Source: Flavobacterium limi
Lineage (GTDB): Bacteria > Bacteroidota > Bacteroidia > Flavobacteriales > Flavobacteriaceae
DNA length: 64,000 nt
Direction: 5' to 3'
Assembly: GCF_010645075.1 (NCBI RefSeq)
Contig: NZ_JAADZV010000009.1
Span: forward strand, 1-64,000
In this document: positions 14,385 to 32,019 of the stretch, piece after piece
How the letters are laid out: the number at the start of each line of letters is the position of its first letter
How positions within the stretch are numbered: position 1 is the first letter of the stretch
Notes under the pieces: model-generated
What the model was told of the DNA's origin: nothing
Databases searched by the model: none
What the model saw: the letters and a program-made list of their open reading frames with translations, nothing else
Position numbers and translations under genes: made by a program

Positions 14385-15392
14385 TTACCCCCCAATCGCA
14401 ATCATGCTGCGATTGTCAAAATGCAGGTTTGGATCATCCATTTCAGAAATCGTAACCATACCTGATCTGACTTTCTTTTTGCTTTTTACAGAAGCCGAAA
14501 TCAATTCGGTAATTGATTCACCTTTTCTGAAAGCAGTAAGCAAATCGGTTTCGGAGTTCGAGAAAAGGCAATTTTTAATTTTCCCGTTTGCGGTAAGGCG
14601 GATTCGGTTGCAGCTATCACAAAACGGATTTGTAATGGAACTTATGATTCCGAAATCACCCTGAAAACCTTTGATTTTATACGTTCTGGCAGTGAAGTTT
14701 TTCTCATCTTCCAGTTTCTGGATTTCATCTGAAGAAAAATTATCTTCAACTTGTGATAAAATTTCCTTTTGTGAAACCATTTTACTTCTGTCCCATTCGT
14801 TTCCGGCAAAAGGCATAAACTCAATAAAACGGACAGAAATTGGCAATGACTCTGTTAAATTGACAAAGTCTGTAATTTCGTTATCATTAAAACCTTTCAT
14901 CAAAACCACATTTACTTTTACCTGAAAATTATGATTTAAAAGCAAATGCAGATTGTCAATCACTTTTTCAAACTGATTTCGAAGCGTTACGGAATGGAAT
15001 TTTGATGAAACCAACGTATCTAAACTCAGATTTATTTTTTTGATGTTTGCATTCTTTAAAACTTCAATATGACGGTCAATTAAAATACCGTTGGTCGTAA
15101 TCGAAAGCGAAACTTCTAAAGCCGATAATTTCGAAACAATTTCAGGAAAATCTTTTCGCAACAAAGGTTCTCCTCCGGTCAGCCTGATTTTATCAACACC
15201 ATTTTTTACGAAAGTTTGGGCAATAGCAAAAATCTCATCTGCCGTCATTAAACTGGCTTTCGGAGACAATGCGATTCCCTCAGCAGGCATGCAGTACGTA
15301 CAACGCAGATTGCATTTCTCTAACAGCGAAATACGCAAATAGTTGTGTTTTCGCCCAAAATCATCCGTTAAAATGGTTTTAGAGGGTGTCAT
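14385..15392 (-). CDS. moaA: GTP 3',8-cyclase MoaA
   Basis: Radical-SAM enzyme for the first step of molybdopterin synthesis: GTP to 3',8-cyclo-GTP. At 335 aa it is the normal length. The N-terminal cluster Cys27, Cys31, Cys34 (CNLRCTYC) binds SAM, GGEP is at 73-76, and the C-terminal substrate cluster Cys258, Cys261, Cys275 (FCDSCNRIR and NCLF) is present. The protein ends in Gly-Gly, as functional MoaA does. It overlaps the end of the moaC-moaB gene by 14 bp and is the last gene of the leftward molybdenum cofactor operon. Confidence 0.96.
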   Translation of the reverse strand: MTPSKTILTDDFGRKHNYLRISLLEKCNLRCTYCMPAEGIALSPKASLMTADEIFAIAQTFVKNGVDKIRLTGGEPLLRKDFPEIVSKLSALEVSLSITTNGILIDRHIEVLKNANIKKINLSLDTLVSSKFHSVTLRNQFEKVIDNLHLLLNHNFQVKVNVVLMKGFNDNEITDFVNLTESLPISVRFIEFMPFAGNEWDRSKMVSQKEILSQVEDNFSSDEIQKLEDEKNFTARTYKIKGFQGDFGIISSITNPFCDSCNRIRLTANGKIKNCLFSNSETDLLTAFRKGESITELISASVKSKKKVRSGMVTISEMDDPNLHFDNRSMIAIGG

Positions 15393-29529: not shown

Positions 29530-29794
29530 TATTTAAAAAGCAACTTTAAAATTCGAAGATTGGAGTCAGGCTGATCTGATTTGAAGCTCTTTTATATACA
29601 AAACCTTAGACTCCCGCTCAGGGTTACAGTTTCTCAAATTAGAAATTTTGGATATAAAAATTCTACTAAATACATATAATTAAAGAAATAAAAAATATCC
29701 AAAAGCAAGCATTAAACCTATAAGAATCAACAAATATTTTTAAAACAAAACAGACCACAGCCTAAGCATAACGATAACTTCAAAATCAATAATA

Positions 29795-29914
29795 ATGAAA
29801 CCTATCAGCTTTAAATATATCATAAAAAAGATTATTGCCGGAAGTATCCTTTTCGGATTGCCTTTGACTCTTTTAGCTGGGGTTTTGGCATTATTGTATC
29901 TAATTTTTAAATAA
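29795..29914 (+). CDS. Small membrane protein A (39 aa)
   Basis: MKPISFKYIIKKII then a single hydrophobic segment (GSILFGLPLTLLAGVLALL) and a short basic end. Paralogous to the 39-aa protein at 30108-30227: both have the pattern MK.I....I.KKI..G.ILF..PL..LAG.LAL. It lies 6 bp before a 57-aa ORF. The presence of two homologous copies of equal length supports that it is a real gene. Function unknown. Confidence 0.65.
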   Translation: MKPISFKYIIKKIIAGSILFGLPLTLLAGVLALLYLIFK

Positions 29915-29920
29915 TAAATC

Positions 29921-30094
29921 ATGGCTGAAGTAAAACAGGAAGTTGTAGAAATATCCAGCACGGACAATAAAATTACCGAAGAAACTAATTTTTATATAAA
30001 TCAACTGGAAGTGATAGAGGCACTACTAGTTACAGGAAAGGAAGAAAAAAAAAATATACAGTTTATCCTGTTCCTGACTAAAATATTAAACTAA
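29921..30094 (+). CDS. Hypothetical small protein (57 aa) between two membrane miniproteins
   Basis: Starts MAEVKQEVVEISSTDNK, acidic and soluble in its first half, with a hydrophobic end (IQFILFLTKILN). Spacing to both neighbours (6 bp and 13 bp) fits an operon. No family recognised; coding status rests on tight packing and frame. Confidence 0.5.
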   Translation: MAEVKQEVVEISSTDNKITEETNFYINQLEVIEALLVTGKEEKKNIQFILFLTKILN

Positions 30095-30107
30095 AAAAAC
30101 ACATAAT

Positions 30108-30227
30108 ATGAAACTAATCGATTATCAAATTATAGGCAAAAAGATTGTCGTAGGAACAATTCTTTTTTTAGTTCCGCTGGCAATTCTGGCCGGAGGTTTA
30201 GCACTAATCAATCAATTTTTAAAATAA
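30108..30227 (+). CDS. Small membrane protein B (39 aa), paralogue of A
   Basis: MKLIDYQIIGKKIVVG followed by one membrane segment (TILFLVPLAILAGGLALI) and NQFLK. Same length and pattern as protein A. It ends 6 bp before the membrane hydroxylase gene, so it could be a small subunit or partner of that enzyme. This is inference from position. Confidence 0.65.
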   Translation: MKLIDYQIIGKKIVVGTILFLVPLAILAGGLALINQFLK

Positions 30228-30233
30228 GAAATC

Positions 30234-31301: not shown

Positions 31302-32019
31302 ATGAAAAATAAAATATTTAAAAACAGCATTTCAGCCCTAACCCTGCTTTTTACAGTTATTGGTCTGGCACAAAATAAAAGTTCTAATACAGTATCACTA
31401 GATGTGTATTACAGTAAAATTCAGGCAGAAAAAAATCCGCAGATTATTGATGCGAGAGGTCCGGAAGAGTTTGCTTTAAACCATATTAACGGAGCGGTAA
31501 ATTTTAATCTGGAATCAAAGGATTATGAGCAGCAGCTGGCAAAACTGGATAAAACAAAACCCGTTTTTACCTATTCTATCGGTGCCGGAAGAAGTGTCTG
31601 GCTCGCTGATGATTTATTAAAAAAAAGGTTTTAAAGAAGCTTACAGTTTAGAAGGCGGAATTGCCAACTGGATTGGTAACGGAAAACCGTTTTATGCCAA
31701 TTCAAAAAGTAAATTGACGTTAGCAGAATACAATAAAATCATCGCTGAAAACAAAGATGTTTTAGTAGATATCGGATCCATTTATTGTGGTGCCTGCAAA
31801 AAAGTAAAACCGGTTCTGGAAACTATTAAAACGCAATATGGAACCAATTTAAAAGTCATAGAAATTGATCTGGAAGACAATCCACAATTTATAGCCGACC
31901 TCAAGATAATTAAAGTTTTTCCAACCCTGATTTTATACAAAAACGGCAAAATCATTTTCAAGAAAGAAGGTACAGCCGATTTGAAAAAACAGGTTGATTT
32001 GGCTTTGGCACAAAATTAA
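31302..32019 (+). pseudogene. Exported rhodanese-thioredoxin protein, frameshifted at an A8 run
   Basis: Signal peptide (SALTLLFTVIGLAQ), then a rhodanese domain (NPQIIDARGPEEFALNHINGAVNF) and a thioredoxin domain with CGAC (YCGACKKVKP) and VFPTLILYKNG. The frame breaks at an eight-A run (31619-31626): one extra A restores LLKKKGFKEAYSLEGGIANW and joins both halves. The rhodanese nucleophile Cys is replaced by Ser (FTYSIGAGRS), so that domain is probably inactive as a sulfurtransferase. Either a real mutation, ribosomal or polymerase slippage on the A run, or a sequencing error. Six bp after the hydroxylase gene. Confidence 0.75.

Follow-up and report, generated by a model that had tools for sequence, protein, structure and literature searches.

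The region analysed lies in a 64,000-nucleotide stretch of the Flavobacterium limi genome, hereafter the window, and the features listed in this paragraph are on its forward strand. A sulfatase gene (PF00884; 27555–29474), the usual upstream neighbour, is followed by what appears to be the 3′-end remnant of a lost second sulfatase (29732–29794). Next come a 39-residue membrane protein, miniA (29795–29914), an open reading frame (ORF) of 57 residues (29921–30094), a second membrane protein of 39 residues, miniB (30108–30227), and a gene for a 353-residue membrane di-iron hydroxylase (PF04116; 30234–31295). The positions of these ORFs and the gaps of 6, 13, and 6 bp between them are as given in the preliminary description. 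The last gene considered, encoding a rhodanese-thioredoxin protein by Pfam (31302–32019), is a single ORF of 238–239 residues in relatives and is interrupted by a frameshift in the F. limi assembly.

The two small membrane proteins had been described as homologous. They share 20 of 39 residues (51%), and a search of the F. limi genome with miniA returned miniB at E = 5.7e-5 and one further, weak match (E = 0.37), so that their likeness is not due to chance. The two are nevertheless not equal: miniB is a conserved gene, whereas miniA is a rare extra.

The downstream gene is of the sterol desaturase-family type, as originally proposed: its product matches PF04116 (FA_hydroxylase) with 80.4 bits (E = 2.1e-22; gathering score 31 bits) and is 95–96% identical to the hydroxylases of F. 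hibisci, F. salmonis, and other species. Among 26 aligned hydroxylases, H153, H156, H157, H166, H169, H170, H256, H257, H259, H260, and further histidines are invariant; they form HxxHH-type motifs, which we take to be the clustered metal-binding histidines expected of PF04116. With the ornithine lipid hydroxylase OlsE the enzyme shares the PF04116 match, the invariant histidine clusters, and a weak NCBIfam match (NF052566, E = 4.4e-12), but its score of 45.9 bits is far under the equivalog cut-off of 475, and it is therefore not OlsE. No match to PDB sequences was found at E ≤ 1. AlphaFold predictions made with a 26-row alignment of near relatives were discarded, both for the hydroxylase alone (mean pLDDT 39, pTM 0.24) and for mini read through its stop codon into the hydroxylase (mean pLDDT 37, pTM 0.23), and no interface was predicted.

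Conservation and Selection of miniB

Orthologues of miniB (the mini1 family, here called mini) are present in all 80 named Flavobacterium loci, these being the best 80 from a scan of named genomes; they are always 39 residues long and lie 5–7 bp ahead of the first hydroxylase gene. Likewise, all 30 hydroxylase-bearing loci among 150 genomes of the genus, F. limi included, carry a mini of 39 residues at a distance of 6 bp. Four of the named loci (L080, L088, L089, and L129) have tandem hydroxylase genes, and here mini precedes the first copy only.

Neither of the two outcomes that the preliminary description named as refuting it was seen: homologues exist, and they show purifying selection. The pooled NG86 dN/dS of mini is 0.109 (60 of 79 distinct sequences, 1749 pairs with dS < 2), the 30 genus loci give a median ratio of 0.113 (433 pairs), and diversity at the three codon positions amounts to 0.139, 0.057, and 0.313 (79 distinct sequences, window included). 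Within its 39 residues, miniB has one hydrophobic span, with a maximum 19-residue Kyte-Doolittle mean of 2.53 at residues 13–31, as would be expected of a small single-span subunit of fewer than about 60 residues. This maximum and the N-side charge of +2 suggest that mini crosses the membrane once with its N-terminus inside. No Pfam match was found for miniA, miniB, or the 57-residue ORF at E ≤ 1, nor for two corresponding proteins from relatives (miniA of L066 and the 53-residue ORF of L067) at E ≤ 0.1. In NCBIfam, the best hit of miniB was NprX_fam (E = 0.19; 11.6 bits against a cut-off of 33), and no curated Pfam or NCBIfam family was matched. By its conservation and selection, miniB is a real, conserved gene.

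These constraints could also be read differently, namely that the mini ORF acts chiefly in cis as a leader whose translation opens the hydroxylase start by translational coupling, while the peptide itself does little. The gap of 5–7 bp kept in all 80 loci would fit such a leader, and so would the end of the gene: codons 36–39, beside the hydroxylase start, show almost no synonymous change, and the last codons are nearly frozen in their nucleotides (CAA in 66/66, TTT in 69/69, TTA in 79/79, and AAA in 78/79 sequences). Since they are frozen at the nucleotide level, part of the conservation of mini appears to serve the hydroxylase start, and these codons point to a start site of the next gene that is hidden in the 3′ end of mini. 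Codons 9–31, in contrast, change freely at synonymous sites while the protein is hardly altered at key residues. K11, K12, G16, I18, P23, L24, and G29 are invariant although their codons vary, and the constant G16 is encoded by four different codons. Such invariant residues with varied codons point to a functional peptide in the body of mini, and a dN/dS of 0.11 also speaks against a leader, as does the persistence of the protein motif in a different family within the class (f3, see below), where the next gene is a different small ORF. Attenuation in response to sulfur is disfavored by a mini consensus that contains neither cysteine nor an internal methionine. We regard a predominant leader function as rather unlikely, and a functional peptide and an embedded start site may both be present together.

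Sporadic Occurrence of miniA and the 57-Residue ORF

Only three of the 80 named loci contain miniA: L066 (F. ajazii), L067 (F. hydrophilum), and L068 (F. pectinovorum strain 9). In each of them the order is second sulfatase, miniA, an acidic soluble protein of 53 residues, miniB, and hydroxylase. By blastn, window positions 29732–30103 align with L068 and L066 at 72% identity over 378 and 384 columns, respectively, and nothing like the second sulfatase of these relatives was found further upstream of 29732 in the window. The F. limi genome holds no closer copy of this sulfatase than a 64% identical paralogue. The alignment thus indicates that the second sulfatase has been deleted in this genome, leaving the 3′ remnant.

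The 57-residue ORF is a 3′-frameshifted form of the 53-residue protein, which it follows to about residue 45 before leaving the frame at a run of ten adenines (A10; 30045–30054). The other 149 genomes of the genus yielded no orthologue of the acidic ORF, and the 53-residue query gave no match in them at E ≤ 0.01. As a separate observation, tblastn with the 57-residue ORF gave weak matches (E = 0.002–0.5) to one conserved protein of about 330 residues in many genomes. In the rhodanese-thioredoxin gene, the reading frame is interrupted at an A8 run (31619–31626) that is A7 in L065, L066, and L068. As this is a second homopolymer frameshift near the A10 run, assembly errors are possible.

The preliminary description had suggested that such small proteins could be subunits of the membrane enzyme, which implies that they act as a set. 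That miniA, the 57-residue ORF, and miniB form a functional three-part set with the hydroxylase in this genome would agree with their tight packing, with the same gene order in the three relatives, and with dN/dS values between the window and these relatives of 0.25 for miniA and 0.31–0.40 for the first 45 codons of the 57- or 53-residue ORF, which suggest mild constraint on both. Against this, 77 of the 80 named loci lack miniA, and none of the other 149 genomes of the genus yielded the acidic ORF, while in F. limi the partner sulfatase of miniA is deleted and the 57-residue ORF is frameshifted. We consider such a set highly improbable; miniA and the 57-residue ORF form a lineage-specific duplicate pair that was tied to the extra sulfatase and is probably decaying here.

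Co-occurrence of mini and One Hydroxylase Clade

The hydroxylase clade (76–100% identity) is present in 30 of the 150 genus genomes, F. limi included. A mini profile of 20 rows (A4) matched the same 30 genomes at E ≤ 1e-16, with the best match elsewhere at 0.0028; the profile was built partly from loci later found, so that these positives hold partly by construction, whereas the absences do not. In f3, 14 of 151 genomes have the clade (55–64% identity), and these 14 are also the ones with mini (E ≤ 2e-10; the next match is at 0.0034). Two phylum draws of 395 and 390 genomes placed both genes in the same 13 genomes and contained one further hydroxylase, of 41% identity, without mini. With overlaps between draws removed, 53 distinct genomes carry both. 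Upstream of ten hydroxylases at 36–43% identity we found no mini-like ORF, nor the second small protein described below (mini2), and in the tree a branch with 100/100 support separates the mini carriers from the non-carriers.

Since A4 includes minis from both f3 and Flavobacterium, the test was repeated with separate profiles against 4901 entries. The f3-only profile found all 80 Flavobacterium minis. At E < 0.01, the Flavobacterium-only profile found the 80 minis, 11 f3 minis, the miniA proteins of the three relatives, and one singleton, and it missed the remaining f3 minis. The singleton is a membrane ORF of 37 residues (L064:3652–3765) that lies behind another sulfatase, has a weak likeness to mini (E = 0.0013), and is perhaps another decayed duplicate.

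In three genome draws and the 80 named loci, the mini gene is thus obligately linked to the enzyme gene, as a subunit gene would be. For miniB, the question raised in the preliminary description, whether the miniproteins always travel with the hydroxylase gene, is answered positively in the genomes covered; miniA was found in just three other fetched species. By this distribution, mini is an obligate partner of one hydroxylase clade in two families.

A Second Helix, Separate in f3 and Fused in Flavobacterium

Twelve of the 14 f3 loci have the gene order mini1, mini2, and hydroxylase core. Here mini2 has 41–67 residues and one hydrophobic span, and the core has 291–324 residues; the remaining two loci (L155 and L156) have one divergent ORF of 54 residues and a core of 278 residues. 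A profile built from the 12 mini2 proteins hits every one of the 81 Flavobacterium hydroxylases within positions 1–37 (E = 1.9e-4 at worst), the segment lying at about residues 6–37 in F. limi. Among the 4901 entries, hydroxylases and the 12 mini2 proteins are the only matches below 0.01. Since mini2 matches the hydroxylase N-termini, the same helix is a separate protein in f3 and part of the enzyme in Flavobacterium, and this is our chief ground for supposing that helices of this kind bind the enzyme. The pattern favors mini proteins that act as physical subunits. In all loci seen, mini1 itself remains a separate gene. The tree does not tell whether the split or the fused form of mini2 came first. 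For direct homology between mini1 and mini2, hhalign gave a probability of 48%, and none is claimed.

Genomic Neighborhood and Possible Substrate

A sulfatase lies within about 6 kb in all 80 named loci, and the other neighbors within this distance include rhodanese-thioredoxin (78 loci), SusD (72), a PF03601 transporter (69), and SusC (65). Of the genes listed, the one closest upstream of the hydroxylase encodes a PF00884-type sulfatase in 62 loci and a DUF1214 protein in 18, and directly behind the hydroxylase 12 loci have an alkylsulfatase-like protein (PF14863, PF14864) resembling that of L067. The f3 neighborhoods contain SusC in 14/14, SusD in 12/14, and sulfatase in 12/14 cases, the other two showing no sulfatase. 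The window additionally encodes an arylsulfotransferase. Every Flavobacterium locus examined is an organosulfate island. The sulfatase and SusC/D neighbors lead us to guess at a lipophilic organosulfur compound, or the alcohol left after its desulfation, as the substrate.

Two observations concern the islands as a whole. In 22 of the 80 named loci (L066, L067, L068, and 19 more), the island also contains a DUF1254/DUF1214 pair. In F. limi, window positions 14385–61121 form a large sulfur island with molybdopterin- and siroheme-like genes, three SusC/D pairs, several sulfatases, the arylsulfotransferase, a PF03601 transporter, and cysE- and cysK-like genes, named in part by Pfam matches and in part from the look of the sequences.

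Given this setting, miniB might stand alone or serve another product of the island, such as a sulfatase or SusC/D import, and be merely co-transcribed with the hydroxylase. The sulfatases in all 80 Flavobacterium loci are in line with this, as are the position of miniA directly behind a sulfatase and ahead of a non-hydroxylase ORF and the weakly similar singleton of L064. On the other hand, in each of the three draws mini is present exactly where the hydroxylase is. The two genes also keep together in f3, where the neighbors are different and two of the 14 neighborhoods lack a sulfatase, and in Flavobacterium the adjoining helix, mini2, forms part of the hydroxylase itself. Taken with these points, a function apart from the hydroxylase appears unlikely.

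Discussion

Conservation, selection for the protein sequence, strict co-occurrence, and a split/fused pair are all seen directly in the genomes compared. Our best overall explanation, which we hold to be fairly probable, is that miniB serves a membrane di-iron hydroxylase in an organosulfate setting as a small accessory subunit. In this model miniB would be translated as a 39-residue inner-membrane protein consisting of one kinked helix, with a conserved proline in mid-helix, an N-terminal KK, and, judged by charge, the N-terminus inside. It would be co-translated with, and bind to, the hydroxylase encoded 6 bp downstream and would help to assemble, stabilize, or tune this enzyme, a role comparable to that of CydX or subunit IIa in oxidases. 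The mini2 segment would be a second such helix, a separate small protein in f3 and fused to the N-terminus of the enzyme in Flavobacterium. The enzyme might then hydroxylate a lipophilic organosulfur compound, or the alcohol remaining after desulfation, within a SusC/D-sulfatase scavenging island; this substrate is guesswork from the neighboring genes.

The subunit role of miniB is likely in the light of its co-occurrence, selection, fixed spacing, and retention in f3, and in this respect the preliminary description has stood; for miniA and the 57-residue ORF, sporadic and left with a lost sulfatase and a frameshift, membership in such a set is not supported. The finding is sound for one of the two miniproteins, miniB, where it goes deeper than first reported, and the duplicate pair becomes a side story of gene loss.

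Enzymes of the FA_hydroxylase superfamily are usually seen as single-chain enzymes and are not known to have a small subunit. The literature covered on hydroxylases with small membrane proteins, sulfatases, organosulfur compounds, and OlsE, a scope outside which most subscription papers fall, contained no description of this gene pair.

Two known systems invite comparison. CydX is reported to co-purify with cytochrome bd oxidase and to be needed for its activity (PMC5322542). It resembles mini in being a very short single-span protein, easily missed in annotation, whose gene lies beside that of a membrane metalloenzyme. CydX differs in that its partner is an oxidase, whereas mini accompanies a member of the FA_hydroxylase superfamily and is known from sequence alone; moreover, cydX lies behind cydB in cyd clusters, while the mini gene is upstream of its partner. 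Subunit IIa of the B-type (ba3) cytochrome oxidase is a single helix of 41 residues, an extra subunit that had been overlooked and that takes the place of the N-terminal helix which subunit II has in A-type enzymes (PMC3128077). The same split/fused logic applies to mini2. Here, too, the partner differs, being a heme-copper oxidase, and in our case the split or fused helix is mini2, with mini1 staying separate. CydX and IIa are precedents for working subunits that consist of a helix of about 40 residues and escaped notice (PMC5322542, PMC3128077).

A more far-reaching proposal, which we think quite doubtful, is that Bacteroidota have a membrane di-iron monooxygenase of three parts that has not been described before, composed of a hydroxylase core and two obligate one-helix subunits, one of them fused to the core in Flavobacterium. 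It would oxidize lipophilic sulfate esters or sulfonates imported by SusC/D and release sulfur oxygenolytically alongside the hydrolytic sulfatases.

If the subunit role of miniB is true, a superfamily usually regarded as single-chain includes, in Bacteroidota, a form with a small subunit that gene callers may have overlooked, and hydroxylases expressed without the 39-residue gene may be inactive. The helix that is separate in one family and fused in another constitutes a natural experiment on the role of one-helix proteins. The finding also marks a hydroxylase inside the organosulfate islands of a Flavobacterium clade, whose substrate, like the role of mini, can be tested by simple deletions.
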